Assembly: GCA_021648685.1 (NCBI GenBank)
Contig: JAKISI010000005.1
Span: 1 to 64,000 of the forward strand
DNA: 64,000 nt
Direction of reading: 5' to 3'
DNA from: Candidatus Polarisedimenticolaceae bacterium
GTDB taxonomy: Bacteria > Pseudomonadota > Gammaproteobacteria > Chromatiales > Chromatiaceae
Numbering within the stretch: the stretch's first letter is position 1; each line of letters begins with the position of its first letter. Of this stretch, positions 18,235-40,522 are shown piece after piece. A program made the translations under genes and the position numbers. The notes under the pieces are model-generated. The model searched no databases. It was not told the origin of the DNA and saw nothing but the letters and a program-made list of their open reading frames with translations.

Positions 18235-18337
18235 GCCATCCTCTCCATCTCTTTCACTGCATTCATTTGTTGCTCCTGCTTCATGGAATCAGCTTTCCGA
18301 TAATGGGGAAGACACTGTTATTCCGCTGGTAACCTGC

Positions 18338-19060: not shown

Positions 19061-19069
19061 GTTTCTGTC

Positions 19070-19372: not shown

Positions 19373-19378
19373 ACGGCA

Positions 19379-21791: not shown

Positions 21792-21793
21792 GT

Positions 21794-22615: not shown

Positions 22616-22953
22616 TCCACCTCCAGTTCTTTCACTCGCAGCTCTTCACCGCCGGTTACCTGCAGCTGGTAGCTGCCGCAGCGGGGGCAGGCATCAAAGC
22701 GCTGTTCGATTTCAACATTGTTTCCACAGGGCAGGCACCAGGCCTTTCCCGGCAGCCTGATGATCTCCAGCCTGGCACTGTCCGCCAGTGTACCCTTTTT
22801 TATCACCTCGAAACTAAAACGCATGGCCTCCAGCTCCACGCCCGCCAGGGCGCCGATCTCCAGCCAGACAATATTTATACGCTCGAAGCCCTGCTTTCTG
22901 GCGGTATCTTCCAGAACCTGCAGCACGCCTTCACACAATGATAGCTCGTGCAT
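22612..22953 (-). CDS. hypA: Hydrogenase nickel chaperone HypA
   Basis: A 113-residue nickel metallochaperone. It begins [16 protein letters not shown], where the Met-His-Glu N-terminus binds nickel, and carries the structural zinc site [10 protein letters not shown]...DACPRCG near residues 70-95. It works with HypB to insert Ni into HoxH. It lies 14 bases after hoxI and overlaps hypB by 4 bases, joining the structural and maturation genes into one transcriptional run. Confidence 0.95.
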
Positions 22954-22967
22954 ATATGGTTGTCGGG

Positions 22968-23471: not shown

Positions 23472-23489
23472 CGGTAGCTCCGGATCGTT

Positions 23490-25449: not shown

Positions 25450-25463
25450 TTCAATAATTCCGC

Positions 25464-26093
25464 TTAGTCATAGCGATTAATGGATTTGGGAAGACCCACT
25501 TCCCGCCCGTTGACAAGATCATCCAGCACCTTGAAGATTGCCGCGCCATCCGGCGGGCAGCCGGGAATGAAGTAGTCCATCTTGACCACTTCATGGCAGG
25601 GGTAGACCTTGGTGGTGATCCTGGGGATATCCGGGTGGTAGGGGATTAGTGGCTCGGTACCCGGCTCGGCTGTAGGCACATCCAGATAGGCTTCCCTGAA
25701 ACACTCCTCCAGAGGCACCACATTACGCATCGCCGGCACCCCGCCCCAAACCGCACAGGCACCAACAGAGATCAGGATGTCGCAGTTTTCCCTGAAATGC
25801 TCCAGTGTCTCGATGTTCTCGTCATTGGCAATGCCGCCTTCGACAAAGCCAATGGCACAACGGTGGGGGATGCGTTTGACATCGGTGAGAGAAGAGCGCG
25901 TGATGTTCACTTTCTCCAGCAGGCGCAGCAAAGTCTCATCCATGTCCAGAAATGACAAGGTGCAGCCCCAGCAGCCGCACAAACCGATCATGGCAACCTG
26001 GATTTTTTCATCCCGCGCAGCGCGCACCGACGGATCAAGCTGTGTTGCAGGCAGCTCATGGGAGGCTGTTTTCTGTTTCACTGACTTGTTCAT
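25464..26093 (-). CDS. hoxY: NAD-reducing hydrogenase small subunit HoxY
   Basis: A 209-residue small subunit carrying the proximal [4Fe-4S] cluster that relays electrons from HoxH to the diaphorase. Cluster ligands appear in GLCGCWGCTLSFLDMDE, SVGACAVWGGVPAMRN and YFIPGCPPDGAAIFKVL. There is no Tat signal, fitting a cytoplasmic group 3 enzyme. The N-terminus has about 30 extra residues (KQKTASHELPATQLDPSVRA) before the conserved core. The start overlaps the hoxU stop by 4 bases. Confidence 0.96.
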   Translation of the reverse strand: MNKSVKQKTASHELPATQLDPSVRAARDEKIQVAMIGLCGCWGCTLSFLDMDETLLRLLEKVNITRSSLTDVKRIPHRCAIGFVEGGIANDENIETLEHFRENCDILISVGACAVWGGVPAMRNVVPLEECFREAYLDVPTAEPGTEPLIPYHPDIPRITTKVYPCHEVVKMDYFIPGCPPDGAAIFKVLDDLVNGREVGLPKSINRYD

Positions 26094-26794
26094 TGACGTT
26101 CCCTCTCCAGCGCCCGCTCACGGATGGATTTGATCTCGAATTTGCGCTTGCCAATGGGCTGGTCATAGCCGACGCCTTTTTCAAGAATACAGCCCACAGG
26201 GCAGAGCCGAGCGGCTTCGCGCACCTGCTCTGGTGGCATCCTGTCTGCGAGTTTCACGTCGATCTCGATACTGGCGTGGCTGCCCCGGTGGTCGATGCTG
26301 AAAATCTTCTGTCCGGTTTCCCGATCACGGATAAACTGCACACAACGCTGACAGAAAATACAGCGATCCCGCTCCAGCCAGATATGTTTGGCGGCATGTT
26401 CGCGCGGGCGCACGGGAAAACGGTAGGGAAAGCGCGACACCATCATCTCCAGTTCATAACCCACCGCCTGCAATTCGCAGCGGCCACTCTTTTCACAGCT
26501 GGGACAGTTGTGGTTGCCCTCGGAAAACAGCAGTTCCACCAGCATTTTGCGCATGTTGGCCACTTCGGGTTCGTTGACTTCCACCTCCATGCCATCTGCC
26601 ACGGGTACCGTGCAGGCGGCCATTACGTTTCCGTTTACTCTTACTGAGCAGGTGCGGCAAGTGCCGAGGCAGGGTTTTCCTCTCTTGTAGCAGAGGGTGG
26701 GAATATAGACACCGTTGTCGGCGGCAACATCCACCAGCGTTGCACCGTCCCCGGCCTTATACTCCTTGCCATCTATGGTTATCCGGACACTCAT
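26090..26794 (-). CDS. hoxU: Hydrogenase diaphorase small subunit HoxU
   Basis: A 234-residue iron-sulfur subunit homologous to the N-terminal part of NuoG. It has a [2Fe-2S] ferredoxin domain (PTLCYKRGKPCLGTCRTCSV), a His/Cys-ligated [4Fe-4S] region (EGNHNCPSCEKSGRCELQAV) and a further cluster site (ERDRCIFCQRCVQFIRD ... CPVGCILEKG). It connects HoxF to HoxY. Overlaps of 4 bases with both hoxF and hoxY show coupled translation. Confidence 0.96.
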   Translation of the reverse strand: MSVRITIDGKEYKAGDGATLVDVAADNGVYIPTLCYKRGKPCLGTCRTCSVRVNGNVMAACTVPVADGMEVEVNEPEVANMRKMLVELLFSEGNHNCPSCEKSGRCELQAVGYELEMMVSRFPYRFPVRPREHAAKHIWLERDRCIFCQRCVQFIRDRETGQKIFSIDHRGSHASIEIDVKLADRMPPEQVREAARLCPVGCILEKGVGYDQPIGKRKFEIKSIRERALERERQ

Positions 26795-28599
26795 TGCTTC
26801 TCCTCCTGTACAAGAGTCCTGCGTGCCTGTTCATGTCCTTGCAGCGCTCCCTCCAGATCGAAAGAAGCAAGCAACACTCCTTCGGGCCGAGCCATTTTTT
26901 GTTGGTAGAGTTCGGAGAATTTTTCCAGCGTGGTCAGCAGTGGTTTCGCCGCTGTGGTTCCCAGCCCGCAACGGCTGGTTTCACGCATCAGAGAACCCCA
27001 GCTGCGGATGTCATCGAGATCCTTGCTGCTGCCCCGGCCGGCATTTATCAATCTGATTTTATGATAGAGATTGACGCCGCCGACCCGGCAGGGAACACAG
27101 ATCCCACAGGATTCATCAACGAAAAAGCGCAAGAAGTTTTCAACAATATCAAGCAGATTCCGGCTCTGATCGAAAATCATCAAAGAACCGTTGCAGGACA
27201 GGTCGCTGTAGCAGAACAGACGCGAACCATCCTGCTCCGCCGACACACACTCCCCTGACGGGCCGCTTACCTGTACCGCCATCGGCTCTTTTGCCCCCGC
27301 CATTTTCAGCACTTCATCAAGGGTGATTCCCCACTCAGTTTCATAGATACCGGGATGCTCACAGTCTCCGGATACACTGAGCAGGCGGGTACCGGTAGAT
27401 TCATCGGTGCCCATGGCGCTGAACCATGCCCCGCCCTGCTCCAGAATGCGGCTGATGGCGGCAAAGGTTTCAACATTATTGACGCAGGTTGGCATCCCCA
27501 GATAGCCTTGCTGGATGGGATAGGGTGGTTTGATGCGCGGTGTGCCCCGTTTTCCTTCGCAGGATTCTATCAGGGCGGTTTCATCGCCACAGACATAAGC
27601 GCCCGCCCCCATCTGTATGCGAATATCAAAATCAAAATCCCGGCCGAGAATCTGCTTGCCCAGCAGTCCCGCATCATGAAATGCCTGTATCTGCTGCTCC
27701 AGATACTCCTTGAGGTACCAGTATTCCGCCCGCAGATAGATAATGCCCTGGCGTGAGCCAATGGCCCAGGCGGCGATAATCACCCCCAACAGCACATCCC
27801 CGGGGGAGCGGGTAAGCAAAACACGATCCTTGAAGGTGCCGGGTTCACCTTCATCTGCGTTGCAGATTACATATTTTTCCTCGCCCTCTGCATCCCGTCC
27901 CAGGCGCCATTTCAGTCCGGTGGGGAAACCGGCTCCGCCACGCCCGCGTATGCCGGAAAGAGAGACCTCTTCAATAACTTCGTCGGGAAGCAGTTCCAGC
28001 ACCTGCGCAAGCAGTGCCGGATAATCCCTTCCGGCCTTGAAAAATACGGGGCCGCGGACGCGGATGTTGTCACTTGTCAATGTATCCACATAGGCTGCAT
28101 CCCTGCGGTCTTTTCTGTCCGGATTGGCAACCTCTTCGGCGCTTGCCCCCTGCCGCAGGCGAGTGATGATGTCTTTGACCTTTTCCGGGGTCAGCCTGGT
28201 GAACACCACTTCATCCACCATCATTGCCGGTTCCTGATCACTCAGGCCGATGCAGTTGGTGTCATACAGACCAAAGGCGCCGGATTCATCGACAGCGCCG
28301 AAAGCACAGCCACATGCCTGCTCCAGGGCAGCACGAACCTCTGCATAACCACACATTCTGGCAATGACCGTATCGGCAAGGTAAATCTTGTGTTTTCCAG
28401 ATGGCCCGTCCAGAAAAAAGTGGTAAAAAGTGAGGGTTTCGCGAATGTCATGGCTGGACATGTTCAACCCCTTCGACAATGCCTCTACCGCCTCGCTGGA
28501 TACAAATCCCTGCTGCTGCTGAACTTCCCACAATATGTCCATCAGCCGGGTTTTGTCCAAGTTATAGTATTCCAGTATGGTCTCTATGTTCGCTTGCAT
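26791..28599 (-). CDS. hoxF: Hydrogenase diaphorase subunit HoxF with fused HoxE-like domain
   Basis: A 602-residue NAD(H)- and FMN-binding subunit, the Ralstonia-type long form. Residues 1-150 are a NuoE/HoxE-like thioredoxin-fold domain (LDILWEVQ..., DIRETLTFYHFFLDGPSGK), followed by the NuoF core: GIRGRGGAGFPTGLKWRLGR (NADH/FMN), CNADEGEPGTFKDRVLL, GAGAYVCGDETALIESCEGK, GYLGMPTCVNNVETFA, and the [4Fe-4S] ligands ESCGICVPCRVGG with a distal cysteine in SRCGLGTTAAKP. In the NuoE-like part only some cysteines of the usual cluster set are seen (NCIGLSDQEP), as in Ralstonia HoxF. It lies 6 bases after the HupK-like C-terminal frame. Confidence 0.97.
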   Translation of the reverse strand: MQANIETILEYYNLDKTRLMDILWEVQQQQGFVSSEAVEALSKGLNMSSHDIRETLTFYHFFLDGPSGKHKIYLADTVIARMCGYAEVRAALEQACGCAFGAVDESGAFGLYDTNCIGLSDQEPAMMVDEVVFTRLTPEKVKDIITRLRQGASAEEVANPDRKDRRDAAYVDTLTSDNIRVRGPVFFKAGRDYPALLAQVLELLPDEVIEEVSLSGIRGRGGAGFPTGLKWRLGRDAEGEEKYVICNADEGEPGTFKDRVLLTRSPGDVLLGVIIAAWAIGSRQGIIYLRAEYWYLKEYLEQQIQAFHDAGLLGKQILGRDFDFDIRIQMGAGAYVCGDETALIESCEGKRGTPRIKPPYPIQQGYLGMPTCVNNVETFAAISRILEQGGAWFSAMGTDESTGTRLLSVSGDCEHPGIYETEWGITLDEVLKMAGAKEPMAVQVSGPSGECVSAEQDGSRLFCYSDLSCNGSLMIFDQSRNLLDIVENFLRFFVDESCGICVPCRVGGVNLYHKIRLINAGRGSSKDLDDIRSWGSLMRETSRCGLGTTAAKPLLTTLEKFSELYQQKMARPEGVLLASFDLEGALQGHEQARRTLVQEEKQ

Positions 28600-28605
28600 T
28601 TTCTG

Positions 28606-29019
28606 TTATTCCTCAACACCTGACTCACAAGTAGCTATATGCAGCCTGTAGCCCACACAGGGATCGATGGCGTGAATAATCTGCCGCGCCTGGGTCTCTA
28701 TCTCCTTCATGTCACCCTTCAGCGCCACCAAAGCCAGCGCGACGCTGTGCGCCAGCATCCCCCGGGGCGCCTGTACCAACCCAATCCCTTTATCCTTCAT
28801 TATGCCCTGCGTCCGGTTTGCAGGATCACCAGACAGCCGCCATTGAGCCAGTTGCGCCACCTCGGTCAATCTGACCACCAGGCGGGGCATCAGGCCATTG
28901 CCATACCGGGTTCGCAAAGCTTGCAACAATACCGCGTACCGGCACAGGCCATCCCACGAGGGGGTATGTATGAAGCCGTTTTCATTCATGAACCGGAGTA
29001 GCCGCGCTTCATCCAGCAT
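28606..29019 (-). pseudogene. HupK/HoxV-like hydrogenase scaffold, C-terminal piece
   Basis: 137 codons in frame with the piece at 29023-29412, separated from it by one TAG and one CCG codon. The content (GLMPRLVVRLTEVAQLAQW, GLVQAPRGMLAHSVAL, HAIDPCVGYRLHIA) matches the C-terminal half of HupK/HoxV, relatives of hydrogenase large subunits thought to act as scaffolds for the Fe(CN)2CO unit. The segment usually between the APRG block and the DPC block, including an APTEWNFHP-like motif, is missing without loss of frame. No SD precedes its ATG. It is 6 bases from hoxF, so it may be translated only by coupling or amber suppression. Confidence 0.6.
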
Positions 29020-29022
29020 CGG

Positions 29023-29412
29023 CTATGCTACATTATCATTGCTGCCCGCTGCTTCCCATCCCATGGCGCGCACTTTCCCGAGATAGCTGGCAGCGACTGT
29101 TTGCCGGCTATCCATCCAGGCATCCAGTTGGGCTGGCGATTCCATATCGAGCCATCTTTCCGGAGATATTCCATAGACCCGGGCGGTGAGAATCTGCCCG
29201 ATCCTATTTTGCAGCAATCCGAACCTTTCCCGGACGGGCTTAAACTCCATTTCCTCCTGGGAAAACCGCCCGGCACCGGCAAACATGGCCTTTTCATATG
29301 CACGCTGAATTTCCATGATTTCAGCCAAAGCCGTGGGGTTGCCGCTAGAAGCTCCGGTAAATTCCGGCCAGTCCAGAAAAATACGCCACAGGTGTTCACG
29401 TATGGTTTCCAT
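29023..29412 (-). pseudogene. HupK/HoxV-like hydrogenase scaffold, N-terminal piece, ends in amber stop
   Basis: 129 codons from an ATG at 29412 (METIREHLWRIFLDWPEFTG), ending in TAG at 29025-29023. The opening is the central REHLWRxxLDWP block of HupK/HoxV proteins, so about 90 N-terminal residues of the family are absent. The same frame continues past the TAG into the C-terminal piece. The first gene of the hydrogenase locus is thus probably a decaying gene, or a two-part protein. A poor SD precedes the ATG. Confidence 0.55.
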
Positions 29413-29467
29413 GACTACCAGGTGGATCAATTTTATTGGCCGAAAGGGGGTCAGATTTATTGGCCAT
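29396..29467 (-). CDS. Possible 23-codon leader ORF of the hydrogenase locus
   Basis: An ATG at 29467 has a strong AAGGAG 7 bases upstream and opens MANKSDPLSANKIDPPGSHG... ending in TGA at 29398-29396, overlapping the HupK-like start by 17 bases in another frame. The DNA contains two copies of TTTATTGGCC about 24 bases apart around CGAAAGGGGGTCAGA. It could be a coupling leader, a frameshifted N-terminus, or a chance frame inside a repeat. Confidence 0.25.
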   Translation of the reverse strand: MANKSDPLSANKIDPPGSHGNHT

Positions 29468-29529
29468 TGACAGCTCCTTTGCGTTGTTTTTGCCATGAAC
29501 GCTTCCTATTGCACAGTTATCAAGCCTTT

Positions 29530-29590: not shown

Positions 29591-29607
29591 ATGTGAAAGA
29601 GGTGATT

Positions 29608-29838
29608 ATGCAAACTGCAACGAGTAAATTAACCAGGAAGTACCAAGCAACCATACCTGAACCTGTACGTGAATTACTTCACTTGCGTTCGGGTGATGAA
29701 ATTGCTTTTGATATTGATGGTGATGATGTTCATCTCCGTAAGGCACGTCCCGTCGATCTTGCCTTTGCTCAAAGTATCGAAGGAACTTTGACCGAGTGGG
29801 CTACAGCAGCGGATGAAGAGGCTTATCGTGACCTTTGA
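29608..29838 (+). CDS. AbrB/MazE-like antitoxin
   Basis: A 76-residue protein with a SpoVT/AbrB swapped-hairpin DNA-binding domain at its N-terminus (LTRKYQATIPEPVRELLHLR, then GDEIAFDIDGDDVHLRKA) and an acidic C-terminal tail that would bind and neutralise the toxin. The ATG at 29608 is used because AGAGGTG lies 4-5 bases before it; a GTG at 29593 lacks this. It overlaps the toxin gene by 11 bases. It is divergent from the hydrogenase locus. Confidence 0.85.
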   Translation: MQTATSKLTRKYQATIPEPVRELLHLRSGDEIAFDIDGDDVHLRKARPVDLAFAQSIEGTLTEWATAADEEAYRDL

Positions 29839-30166
29839 GGCTTTTGATGTTGTGGCGGTGCTATTTCCATTTACGGATAGAACAACCACCAAGCGTCGCC
29901 CGGCACTGGTTTTATCTGATGCTGATAAATTCAATAAACAGGTTGGCCAGTCTGTATTGGCAATGATCACCAGCGCCAGCAATTCAGATTGGCCTTTGGA
30001 TGTGGATATTCAGGATCTGGATGCCGCTGGATTACCGTCTGCCTCAGTGGTGAGAATGAAGCTTTTTACGCTGGATAATAAGTTAATTATTCGCAAGGCA
30101 GGAGCACTAGCCAAGCAAGATCGGCATGCTGTTTCGACTGCACTTCGTCAACTACTCAATATGTGA
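29828..30166 (+). CDS. MazF/PemK-family toxin (endoribonuclease)
   Basis: About 112 residues from a GTG at 29828 (family-like opening TFEAFDVVAVLFPFTDR), with GAAGAGG 6 bases upstream; an ATG at 29813 would add 5 residues but has no SD. The blocks KRRPALVLSDADKFN, SVLAMITSASNSDWPLD and the AGLPSASVVRMKLFTLD segment match MazF/PemK-type mRNA interferases. It overlaps the antitoxin gene, the usual two-gene arrangement. The frame is intact, so the module may be active. Confidence 0.85.
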   Translation: MTFEAFDVVAVLFPFTDRTTTKRRPALVLSDADKFNKQVGQSVLAMITSASNSDWPLDVDIQDLDAAGLPSASVVRMKLFTLDNKLIIRKAGALAKQDRHAVSTALRQLLNM

Positions 30167-30316: not shown

Positions 30317-32659
30317 ATGGATAACTCCGACATGACAGGCTCAAAACCAGAGTGGGAGGCACTCAAATCTATCGTCATCATCGGCAACCACCTCCCCCGG
30401 CAGTGTGGTATCGCCACGTTCACCACCCACCTGCTTGAATCCATCGCGTTGAATGTACCGGATAAAGCCTGTTGGGCGGTCGCGATGAACGACCGGCCAG
30501 AAGGCTATTCCTACCCGTCTCAGGTGCGCTTCGAGATCAACCAGAGTCAACTGAACGAATACAGCCTGGCGGCCGACTTATGCAACCTTAACCAGGTGGA
30601 TGTGATCTGTCTCCAGCATGAATACGGCATTTTCGGTGGCAAGCGGGGCAGCTTTATCATCGAGCTGTTGCGTGATCTCAATATGCCGGTGGTGACGACG
30701 CTGCACACCATCCTGAAGGACCCGAACCTTCAGGATCGGCACATCATGATGCAACTTGCCGAGTTCTCAGACCGGCTAGTGGTGATGAGCGAACGCTCAG
30801 TCGAATTCCTGCGCGATATCTACCAGGTGCCGGAGGAGAAGATCGTCCTCATACACCACGGCATCCCTGACGCACCGTTTGTCGGATCCGATGCCTACAA
30901 GGACAAGTTCGGCCTATCCGGAAAGAAGATCCTCCTGACCTTCGGCCTGCTTTCGCCGGGTAAGGGTATTGAGGTGGTTATCGATGCCCTGCCGGAGATC
31001 GTGAAGGCCCACCCGCAGGTCATCTATATGGTGGTAGGAGCTACCCATCCGCACCTCAAGGCAGAACAGGGGGAGGATTACAGAAACAGCCTTCACCTGC
31101 GAGCAAAGGAACTCGGCGTTTCGAACCACATCGTTTTTCATGATCGTTTCGTTGCCGATGAAGACCTGTTGGAGTTTATCGGTGCGGCAGATATTTATGT
31201 CACTCCGTACCTGAACGAGACGCAGATCATTTCCGGTACCCTCGCCTATGCGCTTGGGATGGGCAAAGCGGTGGTATCCACACCCTTCTGGCACGCCCAG
31301 GAGTTGCTCGCTGAGGGTCGGGGCAGGCTGGTTCCATTCCGGGATCAGGTCGCTCTGGCGCGGGAAGTCATCGACCTCCTGGATCATCCCGATGAGTGCC
31401 GCGCCATCCAGGAGAGAGCCTACCACTACGGTCGCAAAATGGTCTGGAGCAATGTAGGCCGCCGCTATCTTGACACCTTTGCGGAAGCCAAACGACAGCG
31501 ATTGCGAAAGAACGTACCCGAACGCCGGCTGGAGACCCTCGGGCTACGCCAGCAACAGCTACCGGAGATCAAGCTGGACTATTTGCGCCGGATGACCGAT
31601 GACACAGGCATGTTGCAACACGCCAAGTACAATGTTACAGACCGGTCACACGGTTATTGTGTGGACGATAATGCCCGCGCGTTGATCGTCGCCGTCACGC
31701 TACAGGATCTCCAGCCTCTGGATTCAGCATCGAACGGCCTTGCCGCCATTTATCTGAGTTTTCTGGGCCATGCTTTCAATGGCCAAACCGGCCGCTTCCG
31801 CAACTTTATGTCCTATGATCGCCGCTGGCTTGAGGAAGTGGGTTCGGAGGACTCACACGGTCGCGCAGTGTGGGGGCTGGGCGTTACTGTGGCGTTGGGT
31901 CGGGATAAGGGGCAGGTGGTTTATGCGGCCGACTTGTTCCATCGTGCGCTGGATGCCCTCGAACATTTCACTCACCCGCGGACAATCGCCTTCGCCATCA
32001 TCGGTATTCATGCCTTTCTGAGCCGCTACAGTGGGGACAGCCGTGCGCGAAGGATGCGTAAGATACTCTCGGACCGGCTCATGCAGCAGTTCAGAGACTT
32101 CGCCACCGAAGAGTGGCCCTGGTGTGAAGATATCCTGACCTACGACAACGCCCGGCTGCCACAGGCTTTGCTTCTGTCCGGGCAGTGGCTTCCCGACTGC
32201 GAGATGCAGGAGATGGGTCTGCGCGCCCTCGACTGGTTGAAGCGGGTTCAGACCGACGGGAAGGGTTCCCATTTCAGCGCCATCGGCAATCACGGCTGGT
32301 TTTCCAGGGACGGCAGCAAGGCGCAATTCGATCAACAACCCATTGAGGCGGCCGCAATGGTGGATGCCTGCATCGAGGCATTCAACTGCACGCGGGATGA
32401 GGAATGGAGCGCTTATGCCTATCGCTGTCTCAACTGGTACCAAGGGGAGAACGATCTGGGTATTCCGCTCTGCGATTACGCTACCGGGGGCTGCCGGGAC
32501 GGGCTGGAAGCGCAGGGCGCGAATGAAAATCAGGGGGCGGAGTCCACTCTTTGCTGGCTAATGGCGCTGCTCGCCGTTTACAACCACCGCGGCTGGAACC
32601 AGGTTACACCGGGGGAAGAGCCTGTCCGGCTTGATGTTCAGAAAGCGTCACAGGAATAG
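30317..32659 (+). CDS. GT4 glycosyltransferase fused to a C-terminal helical domain
   Basis: A 780-residue protein. Residues about 15-395 form a GT-B, family 4 retaining transferase: GNHLPRQCGIATFTTHLLES, HEYGIFGGKRGSFI, TLHTILKDPN, LLTFGLLSPGKGIEVVIDAL and the donor-site region VTPYLNETQIISGTLAYALG. Residues about 410-770 are helical and look like an (alpha/alpha) toroid (DRSHGYCVDDNARALIVAV, EWPWCEDILTYDNARLPQAL, QQPIEAAAMVDAC, ENQGAESTLCWLMALLAV), possibly a glycoside-processing domain. AAAGG lies 5-6 bases before the ATG. It converges on the GH130 gene at 32664. A mannosyltransferase role is inferred from the neighbours. Confidence 0.8.
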   Translation: MDNSDMTGSKPEWEALKSIVIIGNHLPRQCGIATFTTHLLESIALNVPDKACWAVAMNDRPEGYSYPSQVRFEINQSQLNEYSLAADLCNLNQVDVICLQHEYGIFGGKRGSFIIELLRDLNMPVVTTLHTILKDPNLQDRHIMMQLAEFSDRLVVMSERSVEFLRDIYQVPEEKIVLIHHGIPDAPFVGSDAYKDKFGLSGKKILLTFGLLSPGKGIEVVIDALPEIVKAHPQVIYMVVGATHPHLKAEQGEDYRNSLHLRAKELGVSNHIVFHDRFVADEDLLEFIGAADIYVTPYLNETQIISGTLAYALGMGKAVVSTPFWHAQELLAEGRGRLVPFRDQVALAREVIDLLDHPDECRAIQERAYHYGRKMVWSNVGRRYLDTFAEAKRQRLRKNVPERRLETLGLRQQQLPEIKLDYLRRMTDDTGMLQHAKYNVTDRSHGYCVDDNARALIVAVTLQDLQPLDSASNGLAAIYLSFLGHAFNGQTGRFRNFMSYDRRWLEEVGSEDSHGRAVWGLGVTVALGRDKGQVVYAADLFHRALDALEHFTHPRTIAFAIIGIHAFLSRYSGDSRARRMRKILSDRLMQQFRDFATEEWPWCEDILTYDNARLPQALLLSGQWLPDCEMQEMGLRALDWLKRVQTDGKGSHFSAIGNHGWFSRDGSKAQFDQQPIEAAAMVDACIEAFNCTRDEEWSAYAYRCLNWYQGENDLGIPLCDYATGGCRDGLEAQGANENQGAESTLCWLMALLAVYNHRGWNQVTPGEEPVRLDVQKASQE

Positions 32660-32663
32660 CGGC

Positions 32664-34202
32664 TCAGGGGCGGAAATTCTGTGTTAGCCGGGCCATCACG
32701 TCCGATACCTGCAGGGTGGCAATGCCACAACGCTGATCGGCCGAGGCATACGGGATGATCAATTTGTCCTGGAAGATCATCGCCCCGCAGCTGTAAACCA
32801 CGTTCGGCACATAGCCTTCGCGGTCATTTTCGTTCGGCACCAGGATCGGCTCGTCAATCCGGCTGATAATTCGGGTAGGATCGTCCAGATCCAGCAATTC
32901 GATGCCGAGGCTGTAGGTTCGCAGTGGGCCAACCCCGTGGGTCACTACCAGCCAGCCTTCGGGCATCTCGATGGGTGAGCCGCTGTTCCCCATCTGCATG
33001 AATTCGTATGGGAACTCAGGCTCCTGCAGCATCGTGGCCTGTTGCCAGAAGTGCAGATTGTCCGAAAACATGATCGCGTTGTTCTCGCCATCCTGGCGCG
33101 ACAGCATGACGTATTGCCCCCGGATCTTCCGTGGGAACAGCGCCATGCCCTTACCCTGCGCCTGTTTGCCGTTCAGCGTACTGATCTTGAAAGAGAGGAA
33201 GTCGCGGGTCTCGATGAGCTGTGGCAGGATTCTCTCCCCGTTGTATGCGGTATAGGTCGCGTAGTAGATCACGCTGCCGTCGTCATCGACGAAACGTACG
33301 AAGCGGGCATCCTCGATGCCCTTGCTCTCGGACTCCGACACGGGGAAGATCACCCGCTCGGAAATCTGGTGATCCGGCCGAAACAGAATCTCATAATTGG
33401 ATTGTGCCAACCACCGCGCCATTTTGATGGTCTCGGTTTTGTCTTGTTTCCGGAATCTATCCCCATTACCGGGATTGTCAATTTTCCTTTGCAGATCATT
33501 GAAAGTGAACCCATCCGGCAGTCCGCTGAGGAGCCATTGCGCGACTTTGTAATTTGCCCCCATTTCCTGAAGTTTTAACCGAAACAGATGCAGGTCGTAG
33601 CTTGAATCAGTATGGATTCTGGGCGTGCGCACGTAGTCACTCAGTGGGTCGAAATAAATATCATTGTTCTTATCAATAATTCCGCTACGAAACTCAATGG
33701 AGGAGATGTGGCCTTCACCGGTGGCGCGAAAGCTCATAATGAACCGGCAGGATCCTTCAGAATCCGCCTCCTGGTTTGGTACCTGAATGATGGAAGGATT
33801 GAACAACGCTGCTGCTTCCACAGAATATTCTGCGGTGAAATAAGTGCCGATCAGAAGTCGCCGTTCCTCTGACAATGAATTGGCAGACGGGACATAGTCA
33901 GCCACTCTTTCGAAATTATGTTCCAGCGTCTCTCTGAAGTAGCGGTGACGATGAGAGAAGTCGTGCAAGACAGTTTCCAGTATCGTGCATGCCTCGTCCT
34001 CATCCAGGCTCAACACCCGCTTGATAACTTTTCGGATGCGTTCTTCACTGGACGGCAGATACAGTCGGGTAATGACACGGCCGATTTTTGGATTGATCAC
34101 AATCGACTTGCGTCGCGCTTTAAGCATAGGGGCGGTAGGGCTGATTTCCATCATAACTGTATCCACGAGGCGCAAGTCCTCACTATCTGCTGCAGACTGC
34201 AT
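32664..34202 (-). CDS. GH130-family glycosidase/phosphorylase, long form
   Basis: A 512-residue protein. The second half is a five-bladed GH130 propeller: GIEDARFVRFVDDDGSVIYY (position of the conserved catalytic Asp), LFPRKIRGQYVMLSRQDG, WLVVTHGVGPLRTYSLGIEL, REGYVPNVVYSCGAMIFQDK. About 180 N-terminal residues precede it, as in the longer GH130 proteins. Known GH130 enzymes phosphorolyse or hydrolyse beta-mannosides, giving mannose 1-phosphate or mannose. It faces the bifunctional GT4 gene tail to tail (4 bases apart) and is divergent from the GT4-PMI gene. No signal peptide is seen, so it is probably cytoplasmic. The start is uncertain: ATG 34202 or 34154. Confidence 0.82.
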   Translation of the reverse strand: MQSAADSEDLRLVDTVMMEISPTAPMLKARRKSIVINPKIGRVITRLYLPSSEERIRKVIKRVLSLDEDEACTILETVLHDFSHRHRYFRETLEHNFERVADYVPSANSLSEERRLLIGTYFTAEYSVEAAALFNPSIIQVPNQEADSEGSCRFIMSFRATGEGHISSIEFRSGIIDKNNDIYFDPLSDYVRTPRIHTDSSYDLHLFRLKLQEMGANYKVAQWLLSGLPDGFTFNDLQRKIDNPGNGDRFRKQDKTETIKMARWLAQSNYEILFRPDHQISERVIFPVSESESKGIEDARFVRFVDDDGSVIYYATYTAYNGERILPQLIETRDFLSFKISTLNGKQAQGKGMALFPRKIRGQYVMLSRQDGENNAIMFSDNLHFWQQATMLQEPEFPYEFMQMGNSGSPIEMPEGWLVVTHGVGPLRTYSLGIELLDLDDPTRIISRIDEPILVPNENDREGYVPNVVYSCGAMIFQDKLIIPYASADQRCGIATLQVSDVMARLTQNFRP

Positions 34203-34398
34203 TGCAGCCCGCTCTGTACAAAGCTTGAATTACACATAATTTACACCCTTTTTTTTGCACGGCACTATTATCTTTAGCGGCAGCAAGCGTAAAATTTTTA
34301 CTTTTGTAGCCCGCCCAGCTAATTGTGCTACTGTGGTGGGGCATTTGATTTCTGATGCAATAACAACTGCTTCCCCTAAGTGTACAGGCAGATTATTT

Positions 34399-35748
34399 AT
34401 GAAGATCGCAATGTTGAGTCCCTTGTCCTGGCGCACACCGCCGCGCCATTATGGCCCTTGGGAAAACGTGGTCAGCCTGCTGACCGAAGCGTTGCTGGAG
34501 ATGGGTATAGATGTGACCCTGTTTGCGACCGGTGATTCCATTACCCGTGGCAAGCTTGCCTGGGTTTGTGAGCGACCCTACTCAGAAGACCCCTCGATCG
34601 ATCCAAAGGTCTGGGAATGCCTGCATATTGCAGAGGTATTCCGGCGGGCGGATGAGTTTGATCTCATTCACAATCAGTTCGATTTTCTGCCGCTCAGTTA
34701 CAGTGGTTTTACCAATACGCCGCTGGTCACGACTATCCATGGCTTCTCTTCGCCGTCGATTTTGCCGGTTTATAAAAAGTACAATGAGCGGACTCACTAT
34801 GTGGCGATCAGTGAGGCCGACAAGAGCCGTGAACTTGATTACATTGCAACCATCCATCATGGCATCGATCTCGCGCAATTTCCCTATCGCGAAGAGGCGG
34901 GAGACTACCTGCTGTTCTTCGGGCGTATTCACCACCACAAGGGGGTTCACGAAGCCATTGAGGTGGCGCGCAGGACTGGCATCCGGCTGATGATCGCCGG
35001 GATCGTGCAGGACGAAGCCTATTTCCAGGAACAGGTTGAGCCGCATATCGATGGGGTTAGCGTGGAATACATCGGCTCCGTCGGGCCGGAAAAAAGAGAA
35101 GAGGTGCTGGGCGGTGCGCTGGTCCTGTTGCACCTGATCCACTTCGACGAGCCATTTGGGCTGAGCGTGGTCGAGTCCATGGCCTGTGGTACGCCGGTGA
35201 TCGCCTTTGAGCGGGGCTCCATGCCGGAACTCATTCGTGACGGCGTCACCGGGTTTATTGTGGCCGATACGGACGCCGCCGTGCAGGCGGTGGGAAGGAT
35301 TGATGCACTTGACCGGCGCGCCTGCCGGGACGAGATTGAGGAACGCTTTACCAGCCGGCACATGGCGCGCGCCTATCTGGATGTCTACCAGAGAATCCTC
35401 GACCAGCGGGAGAACTATCGACCGTGGGGACACTATGAAGACCTGCTCGAACGGGACGATCACAAGATCAAGGAGATCATCGTAAAACCGGGCGAGCGGC
35501 TGAGTCTGCAGAAGCACCAGCGCCGAGCAGAGCACTGGGTCGTGGTCAGCGGCGAGGCGCTGGTCACCGTGGGGGATAAGGAAATCCTGCTCAAGCCGGG
35601 GCAGTCCGTGGATGTCCCAAGGGGTGCAGTACACAGAATTATGAACCCCGGTGACATTCCTCTGGTCCTGGTAGAGGTGCAAATGGGGGATTATTTCGGC
35701 GAAGATGACATTATCCGGCTGGAGGATGATTATGACCGCTGCTCGTAA
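34399..35748 (+). CDS. GT4 glycosyltransferase fused to a type II phosphomannose isomerase cupin
   Basis: A 449-residue two-domain protein. Residues 1-340 are a GT4 transferase (MKIAMLSPLSWRTPPRHYGP, TTIHGFSSPSILPVYKKYNE, YLLFFGRIHHHKGVHEAIEV, and the EX7E-type DEPFGLSVVESMACGTPVIA). Residues 345-449 are a cupin of the mannose-6-phosphate isomerase type II family (YRPWGHYEDLL, then SLQKHQRRAEHWVVVSGEAL, DVPRGAVHRIMNPGD), with metal-binding Gln/His/Glu/His visible. That cupin is normally fused to mannose-1-phosphate guanylyltransferase (AlgA/ManC), so the fusion is unusual. The ATG at 34399 is chosen because the GT fold begins there. The stop overlaps the next GH130 gene by 17 bases. Confidence 0.85.
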   Translation: MKIAMLSPLSWRTPPRHYGPWENVVSLLTEALLEMGIDVTLFATGDSITRGKLAWVCERPYSEDPSIDPKVWECLHIAEVFRRADEFDLIHNQFDFLPLSYSGFTNTPLVTTIHGFSSPSILPVYKKYNERTHYVAISEADKSRELDYIATIHHGIDLAQFPYREEAGDYLLFFGRIHHHKGVHEAIEVARRTGIRLMIAGIVQDEAYFQEQVEPHIDGVSVEYIGSVGPEKREEVLGGALVLLHLIHFDEPFGLSVVESMACGTPVIAFERGSMPELIRDGVTGFIVADTDAAVQAVGRIDALDRRACRDEIEERFTSRHMARAYLDVYQRILDQRENYRPWGHYEDLLERDDHKIKEIIVKPGERLSLQKHQRRAEHWVVVSGEALVTVGDKEILLKPGQSVDVPRGAVHRIMNPGDIPLVLVEVQMGDYFGEDDIIRLEDDYDRCS

Positions 35749-36679
35749 TCCTCCGGTAATCGAACGCTGCCCGGCCAACCCGATTCTGACCAAAGACGAC
35801 ATCCCCTATCCGGTGGAGACCGTGCACAACGCTGGCATGGCACGGTACGACGGCCGCACCATCATGCTGTTTCGATCCCACCTGCGCAGTGGCCGGTCAA
35901 TCATCGGTATCGCCAAGAGTGAGGATGGCTTCAAATTCACCGTCGGCCCGGAGCCGTTTTTGGTGCCATCGACAGAAGGCATCTTTGGAGAGTATGAGGC
36001 CTTCGGTGTGGAGGATCCTAGAATCTCATGTATTGACGGGGAATATCTAATTACCTACAGCGCCTATTCGCGCCATGGTGTGCGCATCGGGCTGGCCAGG
36101 ACCCGGGACTTTCGCTCCGTCGAACGGGTTGCGCTGATCACGCAAGCTGACATGCGCAATGTCGTCATCTTCCCGCAGCGGTTCAACGGCCGTTACGCCC
36201 GCCTGGATCGCCCCCATTCGGAGATCAGCCCCTGGTCTGTGTGGCTTTCATGGTCGCCGGATCTGGTGCACTGGGGTGATTCAGAGGTGGTGATGAAGCC
36301 GGTGCAATATCACTGGGATGAGTCGAAAATTGGTCCCGGTGCGACCCCGATCCGCACCGGGAGCGGCTGGCTCAGCATCTACCACGGAGTATTCGAGACC
36401 ATGGACGGAGCGGTCTATCGCCTCGGCGTGGCGCTGCACGATCTTGCCAATCCGGCGAAGATTATCGGCGTCTCGGACGAATGGGTGCTGGCTCCGGAGG
36501 ATCCATGGGAGATCATGGGCTATGTCCACAACGTTGTCTTTACCTGCGGTGCAGTCGCGGATGACGACGGCGGCGTGAAGATTTACTGGGGTGGTGCAGA
36601 CACCGTAATGTGCGCTGGAACCGCGCGCCTCGACGACCTGGTAGATCTGTGCCTCAGTAACAGCCGAGCACCCTATTAA
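35732..36679 (+). CDS. GH130-family beta-mannoside phosphorylase-like protein
   Basis: A 315-residue GH130 protein of standard length. Motifs: PVETVHNAGMARYDGRTIML, FGVEDPRISCIDGEYLITYS (catalytic Asp block), HWDESKIGPGATPIRTGSGW, WLSIYHGVFETMDGAVYRLG and EIMGYVHNVVFTCGAVADDD. Members cleave beta-mannosides with phosphate to give alpha-mannose 1-phosphate. GGAGG 6 bases before the ATG at 35732 fixes the start, inside the end of the GT4-PMI gene. The overlap implies co-translation with that transferase. The precise substrate cannot be read from the sequence. Confidence 0.87.
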   Translation: MTAARNPPVIERCPANPILTKDDIPYPVETVHNAGMARYDGRTIMLFRSHLRSGRSIIGIAKSEDGFKFTVGPEPFLVPSTEGIFGEYEAFGVEDPRISCIDGEYLITYSAYSRHGVRIGLARTRDFRSVERVALITQADMRNVVIFPQRFNGRYARLDRPHSEISPWSVWLSWSPDLVHWGDSEVVMKPVQYHWDESKIGPGATPIRTGSGWLSIYHGVFETMDGAVYRLGVALHDLANPAKIIGVSDEWVLAPEDPWEIMGYVHNVVFTCGAVADDDGGVKIYWGGADTVMCAGTARLDDLVDLCLSNSRAPY

Positions 36680-36810
36680 TCTGCCCGGCCGTCATGAGCC
36701 AGGAAGGAATACACTTGGAAGTCAGAGCCCGGAAGGTGGACTAGGAGGCCGTAGGCGAGGTGGATTGAGAACCTCACGCTGTCGGAACAGTGCGCCCCTC
36801 CCCCCGAAAA

Positions 36811-38208
36811 TCACCAAACGAAGAACATCAGCACCCAAGAGAGCATAACGACACCAGTGCCCGCCATGGTGACAAACCAGGCGCCCCATCGCCGCCAGGC
36901 CGGAACCCCTTCAAAAGCCGCCAGCATGCGCCAGACAAGCTGTCCGCTCCAGAGCACTGCCACAATCAACAGGGCAATGCGCAGATCCGTTACCCACCCA
37001 AGCTCAAGCCGCTCCGCCTTGAGCATACCCACCGTCAGCGCAGAGAGCCCCAGAAATACACTGATCCCGGCCAGTGGCGTCAGGCCATAGGCGAGCCGCC
37101 ATGGTAGCCCCCGGTATCCGAGCAGCCTGCCTGCCAGCCGCAGAGCCAGCAGGATTGCCCCCCCGATCAACAGGGTGGTAATACCGATATAGAGCAGGAT
37201 AACCGCACCATCCAGCCAACTGAAGAGGTCATTGGTTTCAGGGTAATGCGTCAACACCCACCAGGGCGCATTGGCTTGCAGCGGCCAGAAGATGTCAAGG
37301 TCAATCAGCCATTCGGCCAGCCCCTGCTTGAGTGCAACGAACCAGGGGGAGGCCGACCACTGGAAGGAACCGGTGGCAAGCCCCAATATGCCGAATACCA
37401 GCAGCAGCACCTCCCACCGTGAGACATCCGCCTCTTGCAGTGAGAGGATCTCCCGATTTGGAGAGCGGGCGGTCAGGGCTACGGCATCACGGTGTCCACT
37501 GCAACGCCCGCACATGTGACAGGCGCTGTTGCCGGTCATGGTACGAATATTGATCAGCGGCGCACAGTCAACCGCCGGGATACGGGACGGGGCGCGTTCC
37601 CATCTCTCCCTGTCCACCCGAAAATGGATCGGGGCGAGGCGTGACAGCAGCGCAAACACGCCATTGGCCGGACACAGATGTCGACACCAGACCCGCTTAC
37701 CCTTGCCATAGAGAAAGCCGACCAGCATGGCCACAACTGTAGAGCCGCCCAATATCAGAAGCGCCGCCTTGGGGTATTCATAGACACTGATCAACTGGCC
37801 ATAAAGTGTGATCACCACAAAGGCGACAAAGGGCCACCCATCCCACTGCATCCATACCGGTATAGCGCCTCCCCTGCCATGTCGACTGGCCCACTCAGAC
37901 AGCGCGCCTTCCGGGCAGAACACCCCGCACCAGGCGCGTCCCAGCAACATCATGCTGATCATTACAAACGGCCACCAGATCCCCCAGAAGATGAACTGGG
38001 CAAACAGGATCAAATTTTCATAGAGGTGGACATATTCCAATGGCAGCGGCAAAAATGCCGGCCAGACAAGCAGCACCAGAAAAAAAACGACCACAACCCA
38101 CTGGGTGGTCTGAATGGCGCGCCGGTTGCGTTGCATCCACTCCCCCACTGCCGCCAATCTTGAGGTGCCCCCCGGTGCATACCCGCTCTCTACTGTCAGT
38201 TCGCTCAT
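36811..38208 (-). CDS. Membrane polyferredoxin of the P19/Ftr iron system (FtrD-like)
   Basis: A 465-residue inner-membrane protein with about eight helices and NosR/NapH-like cysteine motifs: LGRAWCGVFCPEGALSEWAS, VWCRHLCPANGVFALLS and a third set ending CHMCGRCSGH. Proteins of this kind (FtrD) accompany periplasmic P19/FtrA and permease FtrC and are thought to supply or remove electrons during ferrous iron uptake. It is the last gene of a three-gene minus-strand operon after P19 and a porin. No Ftr1 REXXE motif is found in it or nearby. Confidence 0.78.
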   Translation of the reverse strand: MSELTVESGYAPGGTSRLAAVGEWMQRNRRAIQTTQWVVVVFFLVLLVWPAFLPLPLEYVHLYENLILFAQFIFWGIWWPFVMISMMLLGRAWCGVFCPEGALSEWASRHGRGGAIPVWMQWDGWPFVAFVVITLYGQLISVYEYPKAALLILGGSTVVAMLVGFLYGKGKRVWCRHLCPANGVFALLSRLAPIHFRVDRERWERAPSRIPAVDCAPLINIRTMTGNSACHMCGRCSGHRDAVALTARSPNREILSLQEADVSRWEVLLLVFGILGLATGSFQWSASPWFVALKQGLAEWLIDLDIFWPLQANAPWWVLTHYPETNDLFSWLDGAVILLYIGITTLLIGGAILLALRLAGRLLGYRGLPWRLAYGLTPLAGISVFLGLSALTVGMLKAERLELGWVTDLRIALLIVAVLWSGQLVWRMLAAFEGVPAWRRWGAWFVTMAGTGVVMLSWVLMFFVW

Positions 38209-38228
38209 CTATCTCTCCTGTTCCCCGG

Positions 38229-39683
38229 CTAGAAATTCCACTGCGTTCGCAGACCAAAGGCGGTTATGCCGGAGGCTGAACGATTGCCACCCGGATGGCG
38301 TATATATTGAAGGTTGGGTGACAGCTCGAACTGGCTGTTCAACCGGTAGCGGTAATAAAGTTCTGCCACCTGTTCATCCCCACTGGCGCGATAACCATAA
38401 TCGGGGATGCCATCCGCATCCGCATCGACGCTGAGTGAGGCACGCTGAAACTCATCCGAGGTATTCAACCAGCCAAGTGCGACACCCAAAGCATCGCCAC
38501 CTCTTCCCCAATAGCTGCCGCCAAACTCGGCTCCAAAGGTCACTGCCTGATCGAAGGCCGCATCACCCTCTGCCTGAAACCCATAGCGCAGGAACAGCGT
38601 CGTGTAGTCATCAACCTGCTGGTCGAAACTGATGCCCACACCACTGTGAACATCTACAGTGCCATCAAAATTTTTCCCACGACCATTACGCCAGCCATAC
38701 AGACGGTAGTTGCCGGCCAATCCTCCAAAGAACCGCTGCCCGGTTTCGGCCTGAACGATTATGAACGGTGAGTCAAAGGAGTCTGAGAAGCTTGCCCCCT
38801 CTCCTGTACCAAACAGGCCGAGCGAAATGCCATAACTAACCGGTCTGTAAAAATCGTTGATGTAGGCAAATCGCAGTCCCGGCGAGTAACCAAACTCATC
38901 CACACCCACATCACCATCAACATCCAGCAACGGATTGTTCACGAATGACTGGTTTATGAAGCCGCGGGTCTCATCATCGGCAATGGCATTCTGATCGAAG
39001 AAGATAAAGGGATCTATCTTGCCCACATTGAACTCAATGTGCCGGCGCGACCGGTCCGGGTTCCCGCCCAGTGGCAGCGGTATGTCAAGTTGATACCAGG
39101 CCTCGGCCAGTAGCACAGTGCTGTCTGAGGTCTCGGAACCGGGACGCTGAAAGCTGGTTGAATTGAGCGAGGAGAAGGCTCCACCAGGGTTCTCCAGCCC
39201 CAGGCCCTGGCCCATGCGAAAGTGGGCAAACAGAAAGCCCTCGGCATTGCCCAGGCTGCCTGCCGGCAGACTGACCGTGGCATCGGCGCGGTAATTGAGT
39301 TCAGCATCTCTATCATCCACAGCCGTTGCGTCAGTGCGCGCTTGTGCCATCATGGTAAAGCCCACATCGGTACGGATACCCTCCAGCGAATCCACAGTTC
39401 TGGCCGCCTGGCGATAGCTGTTGACCTGTGACTCTACCGCCTTGAGCCGCGCCGCAACCTGAGGCTCTTCAGCACTAATATAAGGTGTTTCCAAAGAGTG
39501 TTGCAGCGCTGCATTCTCAGCCTCCAGCTGTTCGATACGTCTCTCCATGGCCTCCAGCCGCTGCAGAATCCTGGCATTCAGGGTCTCCTCTGCCAGAATA
39601 CCGGGAGAAGCCACCATCCCCAGTGCCAGGGCAGCCAAAACAGAGCCACCTGATCGTTTTCGTTCAAGCATACTCATACTCAA
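38229..39683 (-). CDS. Outer-membrane porin-like beta-barrel with N-terminal coiled coil
   Basis: A 484-residue exported protein. A signal peptide (VLAALALGMVASPGILAEE) is followed by a coiled coil (RLEAMERRIEQLEAENAALQ) at about 38-90, then alternating beta strands ending in a terminal aromatic residue (FGLRTQWNF stop), the mark of an outer-membrane barrel. It resembles OprB-like carbohydrate porins and trimeric coiled-coil porins. Its start overlaps the P19 stop by 4 bases, and polyferredoxin follows after 20 bases, suggesting a role in metal passage rather than sugar uptake, though this is inference. Confidence 0.75.
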   Translation of the reverse strand: MSMSMLERKRSGGSVLAALALGMVASPGILAEETLNARILQRLEAMERRIEQLEAENAALQHSLETPYISAEEPQVAARLKAVESQVNSYRQAARTVDSLEGIRTDVGFTMMAQARTDATAVDDRDAELNYRADATVSLPAGSLGNAEGFLFAHFRMGQGLGLENPGGAFSSLNSTSFQRPGSETSDSTVLLAEAWYQLDIPLPLGGNPDRSRRHIEFNVGKIDPFIFFDQNAIADDETRGFINQSFVNNPLLDVDGDVGVDEFGYSPGLRFAYINDFYRPVSYGISLGLFGTGEGASFSDSFDSPFIIVQAETGQRFFGGLAGNYRLYGWRNGRGKNFDGTVDVHSGVGISFDQQVDDYTTLFLRYGFQAEGDAAFDQAVTFGAEFGGSYWGRGGDALGVALGWLNTSDEFQRASLSVDADADGIPDYGYRASGDEQVAELYYRYRLNSQFELSPNLQYIRHPGGNRSASGITAFGLRTQWNF

Positions 39684-40246
39684 TACCCACCACGCTTGCC
39701 GATACCGGCGTAGATAAAATCAAACTCAACAGTGAAAGGTTTAAACCAGGGGCGTACCCCGGTGAGGCGGTCGGTGTGACGCCCAAAGTGTTTACCCGCC
39801 GGGTTCTCTGGGGAGGATGGAGGATAGATGGTGTATTTGACCTGGTACCTGCCCGGCCCCATGAGCTTGATGTTATCACCATAGTGCGGGCCATCATTGG
39901 CCACCATGGGCATAAAATCACCGGTTATCGTTTGGTCAACACCTTTCTTGCTGACCTCATATTTGACGTGGAGATAAGGAATCCATTCACCCTCACTAAA
40001 ACCGTTAGCATTTATATCCAGGGCGCGGATATCAGCCTCGATATGTATGTCTGATTTTTCCGCAGGCCGCATCATGCCTCCTGGCTCCATGCGTATCGGC
40101 TGCAGGTAGACTGCTGCAATCTCCATCCCGTAGCGCTGCTCAGGCACGCCGATGGTGTACTCCAAAGCCAGCGTGACCCCTGTGGTCAAGAGCAACCCCA
40201 GGCCAGCAACAAAGGAGATAAAGGTCTGTTTTTTAGGCTTTTGCAT
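39680..40246 (-). CDS. Periplasmic iron-binding protein P19/FtrA
   Basis: A 188-residue exported protein. After the signal peptide (ISFVAGLGLLLTTGVTLALE) come the P19 signatures EYTIGVPEQRYGMEIAAVYL, EADIRALDINANGFSEGEWI, GDFMPMVANDGPHYGDNI (His/Met metal site) and RHTDRLTGVRPWFKPFTVEF. P19 binds copper and iron and works in ferrous iron uptake under limitation. The ATG at 40246 has GGAGG 6 bases before it and is preferred over a start 30 bases upstream. A Fur box lies about 160 bases upstream. Confidence 0.92.
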   Translation of the reverse strand: MQKPKKQTFISFVAGLGLLLTTGVTLALEYTIGVPEQRYGMEIAAVYLQPIRMEPGGMMRPAEKSDIHIEADIRALDINANGFSEGEWIPYLHVKYEVSKKGVDQTITGDFMPMVANDGPHYGDNIKLMGPGRYQVKYTIYPPSSPENPAGKHFGRHTDRLTGVRPWFKPFTVEFDFIYAGIGKRGGY

Positions 40247-40400
40247 TAAGTCCTCCAAAAGTGTAATGAGACGCATTAGCGTTACTGATGCAAATTTTTT
40301 AGGCTAAAAACCACTTTGCCAGGAGAGTGCTTCCAGGAAAATCTGCACTGTAAGTGGGTGTGCTATCGTGCAGCAGAGAGTTTGTAGCCTAAGCTGATGC

Positions 40401-40424
40401 AAACGATAATGATTATCATTTGTG
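40401..40424. promoter_or_regulatory. Fur box upstream of the P19 operon
   Basis: AAACGATAATGATTATCATTTG is a near-perfect match to the 19-base Fur consensus GATAATGATAATCATTATC, centred near 40414. It lies about 160 bases before the P19 start and about 200 bases from the nrdG stop. Iron repression of the P19-porin-polyferredoxin operon is the expected outcome. Confidence 0.8.
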
Positions 40425-40522
40425 TTGTCAAGCCTTGGGGCAACGCTTCAACACCTGCCTTGAGGAGACAAAACCAGATGCTGGTTTTTTCTATTTCTGG
40501 CCGAAGTTAAGGTTGGATTGGA

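Follow-up and report, generated by a model that had tools for sequence, protein, structure and literature searches.

What would a bacterium make, or take apart, with two fused glycosyltransferase family 4 (GT4) proteins and two glycoside hydrolase family 130 (GH130) proteins encoded side by side? Such a set lies at positions 30317-36679 of a 64,000-nucleotide stretch (the window; contig JAKISI010000005.1, assembly GCA_021648685.1) of a Candidatus Polarisedimenticolaceae bacterium of the Chromatiaceae. The answer that we tentatively favour, while stopping somewhat short of calling it probable, is that the genes form an accessory module for a cytoplasmic, mannogen-like beta-mannoside that serves as a reserve or stress glycan, in which the GH130 proteins would handle the beta linkages and the GT4 proteins would prime or cap the chain. 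Gene set, family membership, motifs and linkage are read from the sequence; every reaction and product is inferred. The features are as follows.

30317..32659, + strand: GT4-toroid fusion, 780 residues; GT-B/GT4 domain at about 17-395 and predicted C-terminal (alpha/alpha)6 toroid at about 410-760
32664..34202, - strand: long GH130 protein (GH130L), 512 residues; Pfam match at residues 281-504; K351, R369, Q403 and H422
34399..35748, + strand: GT4-cupin fusion, 449 residues; canonical GT4 domain and type II phosphomannose isomerase (PMI) cupin at about 336-443
35732..36679, + strand: short GH130 protein (GH130S), 315 residues; gene overlaps that of GT4-cupin by 17 bp
36753 (genome G250) and 36803 (genome G252): right-hand edge of the sequence common to same-genus genomes without the block

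All four reading frames are intact and open. The open reading frames (ORFs) and Pfam matches confirm the gene content, coordinates, 4-base gap and 17-base overlap reported in a preliminary description of this DNA. GT4-toroid and GH130L converge across the 4 bp, GH130L and GT4-cupin diverge across 196 bp, and GT4-cupin and GH130S share the overlap. We place the GT4-cupin start at ATG 34399, the mechanical ORF list beginning farther upstream at a TTG; GH130S has an additional upstream ATG, at 35705, that is also in the open frame. A simple hydropathy scan found no signal-peptide-like or membrane segment in the four proteins, in line with the absence of signal peptides noted earlier. Judged by ORF and Pfam match, none of the four genes encodes a transporter for import or export, a secreted mannanase, or a flippase, polymerase or initiating enzyme of polysaccharide synthesis. 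The two GH130 genes are the only ones found in the 2.95-Mb genome (98 contigs, 98.8% complete).

Conservation and company of the gene set

A GH130L scan of one-per-species genomes gave 10 loci in metagenome-assembled genomes (MAGs) titled Gammaproteobacteria, Proteobacteria, Chromatiales or Acidiferrobacteraceae, the closest protein being 94% identical. GH130L adjoins GT4-toroid in all ten. GT4-cupin is also present in seven, six of which have GH130S as well; in the other three the contig ends on the side where GT4-cupin would lie. The 3.2-kb locus L004 is counted in this comparison of gene order and left out of the pair and neighbour counts below. Because the order is kept in other gammaproteobacterial MAGs at 65-95% protein identity, the block is not a chance arrangement. 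Ten flanking proteins, scanned at five of the MAG loci and one other, are all of different kinds, and no shared flanking gene was found among them.

Outside the window's class, GT4-cupin, GH130S and GH130L occur together in three genomes (G088, G124 and G116), two of which also have GT4-toroid; GT4-cupin is on a separate contig in G088, and the G116 contig breaks off within GH130L. One of the three has all four genes on one strand (L044). A plasmid of the fusobacterium Ilyobacter polytropus, typed as conjugative, carries the four genes in a row, its GT4 lacking the cupin, and a Deinococcus plasmid (L070) has GT4-toroid, a GT4 gene and a GH130S-like gene with no GH130L match. The preliminary description had proposed a survey of co-occurrence as a check, and the order kept in the MAGs, together with the full set outside the window's class and on the Ilyobacter plasmid, speaks for a conserved unit.

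Among the 55 relatives searched, five others being of the same genus, PF04041 scored above its cut-off in the window's own genome only. The sequence common to two of the same-genus genomes ends 74 bp (G250) and 124 bp (G252) past the GH130S stop codon. The downstream side alone aligns in G250 (36753-40466, plus a 225-bp piece at 46607); in G252 the downstream stretch is inverted between the counterparts of window positions 4820 and 4887. A clean empty site was found in neither G250 nor G252. The recurrence across classes and plasmids, the absence from the same-genus genomes and the end of shared sequence just past GH130S together indicate a conserved, accessory and probably moving unit. The stretch at 36803-40168, common to these two block-less relatives, holds a NapH-like gene, an OprB gene and a third gene.

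Within the block, GT4-toroid and GH130L form the most constant part. Of 249 genomes searched in the phylum, 11 have GT4-toroid (E 1e-60 or better) and 10 have GH130L (E 1e-57 or better, which left out 13 of 23 genomes as having weaker GH130 matches); nine have both, adjacent in every case (Fisher p 6e-14, the genomes not being independent). G116 lacks GT4-toroid, its GH130L lying at a contig end, and extra GH130L copies away from GT4-toroid occur in G223 and G024, a partial GT4-toroid lying 5.9 kb from one of those in G223. Of 25 plasmid records in which GT4-toroid is covered to at least 80%, 20 were fetched and five left out. GH130L lies within 160 bp of GT4-toroid in 18 of these 20 loci; the two exceptions are Deinococcus and Sphingomonas paeninsulae, the latter with a fragmented GT4-toroid and GH130L at a distance of 4.3 kb. 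The GT4-toroid matches are split in L097, L102 and L104, which are probably disrupted or frameshifted copies.

The plasmid pairs also keep characteristic company. A gene for mannose-1-phosphate guanylyltransferase (GMP), mannose-6-phosphate isomerase or phosphomannomutase (PMM) lies within 6 kb of GT4-toroid in 13 of the 20 loci, and two sphingomonad plasmids carry, in this order, GroEL, GMP, PMI, GT4-toroid, GH130L and PMM genes, the last four in overlapping frames. As judged from these loci, GT4-toroid and GH130L are a widespread pair that on alphaproteobacterial plasmids is often accompanied by GDP-mannose genes; nothing else speaks as strongly as this company for a mannose pathway, or for GDP-mannose as a donor. 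On two Rhizobium plasmids, AGE-family epimerase genes follow the pair (L063:10331-11461 and L101:12655-13788), and the surrounding 6 kb yielded no PMI gene.

The same neighbourhoods bear on whether the block serves an exported or surface polysaccharide whose fragments in the cytoplasm would be edited or recycled by the GH130 proteins. Surface-polysaccharide loci commonly carry GT4 proteins and GDP-mannose genes, which fits this idea, but neither the four genes nor the annotated neighbours of the plasmid pairs include a flippase, polymerase or initiating enzyme, and the transporters nearby differ from locus to locus: CydDC in L066, tricarboxylate transporter genes in L101, and an MFS gene with a solute-binding protein in L102. 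We give a surface polysaccharide little credence.

Directly before GT4-toroid in the window lie a small AbrB/MazE-type antitoxin-like ORF (29593-29838, identified by eye) and a PemK/MazF-family toxin gene (29813-30166). The stretch before these (15017-29496) contains NAD-reducing hydrogenase-like and maturation-like genes, named by eye; its 602-residue HoxFE-like protein has matches of at most 39% identity in the five other same-genus genomes.

Active sites of the four proteins

GT4-toroid matches GT4 Pfam domains above cut-off, and no Pfam family covers its C-terminal half. The predicted model of this protein is weak (mean pLDDT 51.2), though less so in places within the C-terminal half; it was used solely for the fold of that half, by alignment to 999 chains pre-ranked by Foldseek. 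Residues at about 410-760 align with (alpha/alpha)6-toroid proteins at Z up to 25, namely the uncharacterised protein 7tem (Z 25) and GH76 and 2-epimerase-type structures (Z about 18-21), and families outside the listed chains may match as well. Since the C-terminal half of a poor model aligns with such proteins, we accept the toroid named in the preliminary description as a fold and not as a function, which a common toroid does not show.

The GT4 site itself is altered. In 24 of 24 homologues L211 replaces the diphosphate-binding Arg, and Q303 and Y311 take the places of the two glutamates of E-x7-E; across the 24 sequences compared, H130 and K216 are retained and the toroid half carries an invariant Asp-Asp-Asn-x-Arg. 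Solved structures gave three sequence matches, two PimA sequences (E 1.5e-8) and Alr3699. Alignment with Alr3699 gives the same motif columns; alignment with PimA sets the second Glu against Y311 and displaces the Arg and first Glu by one residue. The change is common to sequences of three phyla (Pseudomonadota, Fusobacteriota and Deinococcota) and is therefore not a recent decay.

Both GH130 proteins belong to their family by Pfam score (PF04041; GH130L 111.6 bits, GH130S 186 bits, cut-off 26) and by the catalytic Asp motif, VEDPR in GH130S and GIEDAR in GH130L. As the three basic phosphate-binding residues we took R168, K212 and H231 of Uhgb_MP, their positions being located by counting along a printed alignment. 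GH130S has all three (R, K and H) and the catalytic Asp in seven of seven sequences, as a phosphorylase should, and at the specificity position it has Arg-Asn, like both beta-1,4 references, with Arg in all seven. GH130L has Lys (K351) at the +1-subsite specificity position in 19 of 19 sequences, as do four of four beta-1,2 references, this column having been assigned by our own alignment; Lys is described as the specificity residue of beta-1,2-acting GH130 enzymes (PMC4599007). Two GH130 proteins of different type are thus predicted, GH130L of the beta-1,2 type and GH130S of the beta-1,4 type with a full phosphate site. GH130L departs from a phosphorylase in one respect: it keeps the R and H, but each of the 19 sequences has Gln as the remaining phosphate-site residue, where six reference enzymes have Lys or Arg, and phosphorolysis by GH130L is for this reason doubtful. 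Described GH130 hydrolases have glutamates at these positions (PMC4599007), and GH130L has none at these columns. Candidate activities for GH130L are those of a weakened phosphorylase, of a synthase and of a transferase. A structure prediction of GH130L from 10 close homologues was too weak (mean pLDDT 49.9) and was not used. In another genome of the window's class (G027, L055:8362-12086), three GH130-like segments occur in a row, two of them within one 642-residue frame.

The closeness of two GH130 proteins that differ in type, with a GT4 gene nearby, recalls Teth514_1788/1789 of Thermoanaerobacter (PMC4264767), and the block might likewise salvage imported beta-manno-oligosaccharides by way of mannose 1-phosphate to GDP-mannose, as proposed there. 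Against salvage, the four genes include no sugar transporter or secreted mannanase, none recurs among the annotated neighbours of the pair on the fetched plasmids, the OprB porin downstream belongs to the sequence common to block-less relatives, and the two GT4 fusion proteins are left unexplained. We consider it improbable.

GT4-cupin combines GT4 Pfam domains with a MannoseP_isomer domain (142.8 bits, cut-off 23.6), and its GT4 site is canonical, both E-x7-E and G-R-x4-K being present. When aligned with AlgA of the same genome, the cupin keeps the Gln/His/Glu/His positions, which we take to be metal ligands, as expected of a type II PMI domain; with these kept, an active phosphomannose isomerase is plausible. 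The cupin matches the PMI part of TIGR01479 (147 bits, positions 356-466), under the cut-off for the whole protein, and a full AlgA-type GMP-PMI is encoded elsewhere in the genome. The mannose theme of the preliminary description is supported by these observations and by the 13 plasmid loci with mannose genes.

The best solved match of the GT4 domain of GT4-cupin is TeGSS, a UDP-glucose:sucrose alpha-1,2-glucosyltransferase (43% identity over 334 aligned positions). The Tyr, Arg, Lys and Glu of the TeGSS UDP site, with roles as given in PMC9909042, are kept, and UDP-glucose may be the donor of GT4-cupin. Glucosylsucrose synthesis was considered from this match, but sucrose-phosphate synthase (TIGR02472), one possible source of sucrose, has no match above cut-off in the 98.8% complete genome, which makes sucrose an unlikely acceptor. 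On a Sphingomonas parapaucimobilis plasmid (L071:4303-8008), a GH130 gene, an alpha-glucosidase-like GH13 gene and a GT4 gene follow one another with overlaps, the last encoding a 59%-identical homologue of GT4-cupin; the GH13 neighbour hints at alpha-glucose.

A possible stress linkage and the candidate product

A possible glucose donor invites a reading in which the product is a stress-protectant glucose/mannose heterosaccharide, GT4-cupin adding alpha-glucose and GT4-toroid and GH130L handling mannose, for stress tolerance and not for carbon storage. The product of TeGSS rises under salt stress in cyanobacteria (PMC9909042). In nine of the 20 plasmid loci, GT4-toroid has GroES/GroEL or GrpE/DnaK/DnaJ genes at a distance of 10 kb or less, a count with no genome-wide rate behind it. 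They occur there in four arrangements: groESL directly before GMP (L067 and L100), about 3 kb in front (L098), or behind on the opposite strand (L097), and GrpE-DnaK behind on the opposite strand (L072-L075 and L099). A fifth, divergent groESL, accompanies a chromosomal copy (L045), and in one MAG (L009) a universal-stress-protein gene lies about 0.6 kb beyond GT4-toroid. No GroEL or DnaK match was found at the seven loci with GH130 but no GT4-toroid match (L049, L052 and L055-L059). On the other side, no chaperone match was found in the 64-kb window, in nine gammaproteobacterial loci or in eight of nine further genome loci, and the lack of a sucrose-phosphate synthase match counts against sucrose as the acceptor. 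Because several of the chaperone-linked plasmids are near copies (two GT4-toroids are 95% identical) and the count has no genome-wide null, the stress link of GT4-toroid is a lead. We regard the heterosaccharide as possible, and as a less likely product than the mannogen-like glycan.

The sphingomonad plasmids L072-L075 and L099 carry integrase, GMP, GT4-toroid, GH130L, GrpE, DnaK and DnaJ genes, some with Hsp20, Dps and universal-stress-protein genes in addition, and this stretch resembles a stress-tolerance island with a mannose module. In Sphingomonas melonis, the EcfG regulon includes entries with EcfG-type motifs that are labelled 'Glycosyltransferase' (#1750) and 'Glycosidases' (#1751) (PMC6599016). 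They may or may not be the pair, and the label would fit a GH13 enzyme equally well, so they were not used.

The mannogen-like reserve or stress glycan follows from a mismatch of linkages. GT4 enzymes retain configuration and so form alpha linkages from alpha sugar nucleotides. GT4 phosphorylases are also listed as retaining, and the GH130 enzymes, whose substrates are beta-mannosides, as inverting (PMC8950772). A polymer made by the GT4 pair alone would therefore not be a GH130 substrate. One way out is that the GH130 proteins themselves form the beta part, the other that GT4-toroid is not a normal GT4; both lead to the glycan that we favour. The preliminary description had the GT4 enzymes building a polymer that the GH130 enzymes degrade, and in that form the proposal fails on the opposed linkages and the non-canonical GT4-toroid site, with the Gln at the phosphate site of GH130L as a further point against it. 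Its wider suggestion of a mannose-based storage polymer or solute stands as to mannose and falls as to a GT4-made polymer as the GH130 substrate, with UDP-glucose as a possible donor for GT4-cupin.

We picture the pathway as follows. GT4-toroid would use GDP-mannose, and GT4-cupin possibly UDP-glucose, to form an alpha-linked primer, cap or glucose-containing core. GH130L would extend or trim beta-1,2-mannose on this core, from or to mannose 1-phosphate, and GH130S would cleave its own linkage, beta-1,4, by phosphorolysis. The PMI domain would link mannose 6-phosphate with fructose 6-phosphate. The product would be a short mannogen-like reserve or a stress-protecting oligosaccharide, recoverable at little ATP cost. 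In Thermoanaerobacter, two GH130 enzymes make beta-1,2-oligomannan in vitro from mannose 1-phosphate (PMC4264767).

Several observations weigh against this proposal. GT4-toroid, lacking the Glu-x7-Glu and the Arg, may perform no mannose transfer at all, and the Gln of GH130L has been described above. The nearest relative of GT4-cupin is a UDP-glucose enzyme, and its Sphingomonas homologue adjoins an alpha-glucosidase-like GH13. The genome also has a glycogen synthase above cut-off, which weakens the need for a second reserve, though one may still exist beside it. The pair is not invariable either: GT4-toroid occurs without GH130L in Deinococcus L070, G136 and G128 (in G128 at a contig start), and GH130L without an adjacent GT4-toroid in L049, L052, L065 and L068. 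With these points taken in, we rank the mannogen-like reserve or stress glycan first, the stress heterosaccharide second, and salvage and surface polysaccharide last.

A bolder form of the proposal, which we think rather unlikely as it stands, is that the module is a bacterial counterpart of mannogen, self-contained and horizontally moving, which builds and phosphorolyses an internal beta-mannose glycan. The glycan would be used chiefly against stress, the module would travel together with chaperone genes on conjugative plasmids, and GT4-toroid would be a new GT-B type that works without Glu-x7-Glu.

Comparison with known systems

The domain families are each known; what is new is their combination, its spread on plasmids and the GT4-toroid active site. 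In the literature searched, mostly open-access, no title or abstract start describes the four-gene set or the GT4-toroid/GH130 pair, which does not show absence in print. If an internal beta-mannose glycan is made, it would be a plasmid-spread bacterial mannose reserve or protectant beside glycogen and trehalose, and GT4-toroid, a widely conserved family, would hold new chemistry. The module would also give a physiological setting to cytoplasmic GH130 enzymes that have no adjoining import system.

Three of the proteins' relatives differ in domain make-up. PimA is among the solved sequence matches of GT4-toroid, but relative to PimA and other GT4 mannosyltransferases the Arg and both Glu are replaced and a C-terminal toroid is added. 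TeGSS shares 43% identity and its UDP-site residues with GT4-cupin; its chain has no cupin, and the TeGSS gene has a sucrose-phosphate synthase neighbour (PMC9909042), of which this genome has no match above cut-off. The cupin matches the PMI part of AlgA-type GMP-PMI (TIGR01479) with the same ligand positions, but here it is fused to a GT4 domain and not to a guanylyltransferase.

The Thermoanaerobacter pair Teth514_1788/1789 resembles the block in having two adjacent GH130 enzymes without signal peptides, with GT4 and GDP-mannose genes nearby (PMC4264767). The two best solved matches of GH130L are 9fj8, a 1,2-beta-oligomannan phosphorylase that we infer to be Teth514_1788, and 7fip, which is Teth514_1789 (PMC8950772). 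In Thermoanaerobacter an ABC importer and a GH5 enzyme accompany the pair and salvage was proposed (PMC4264767), whereas here there are two GT4 fusions, a PMI domain and no importer among the four genes; in addition, GH130L lacks one basic phosphate residue and GH130S is of the beta-1,4 type.

The turnover of mannogen in Leishmania depends on GT108 dual transferase-phosphorylases. These belong to a eukaryotic family, and GH130L and GH130S are placed in GH130 by Pfam. The GT108 proteins are propellers of the GH130 fold that act on a beta-mannan reserve (PMC8950772), and it is with this cytoplasmic reserve that we propose the parallel.

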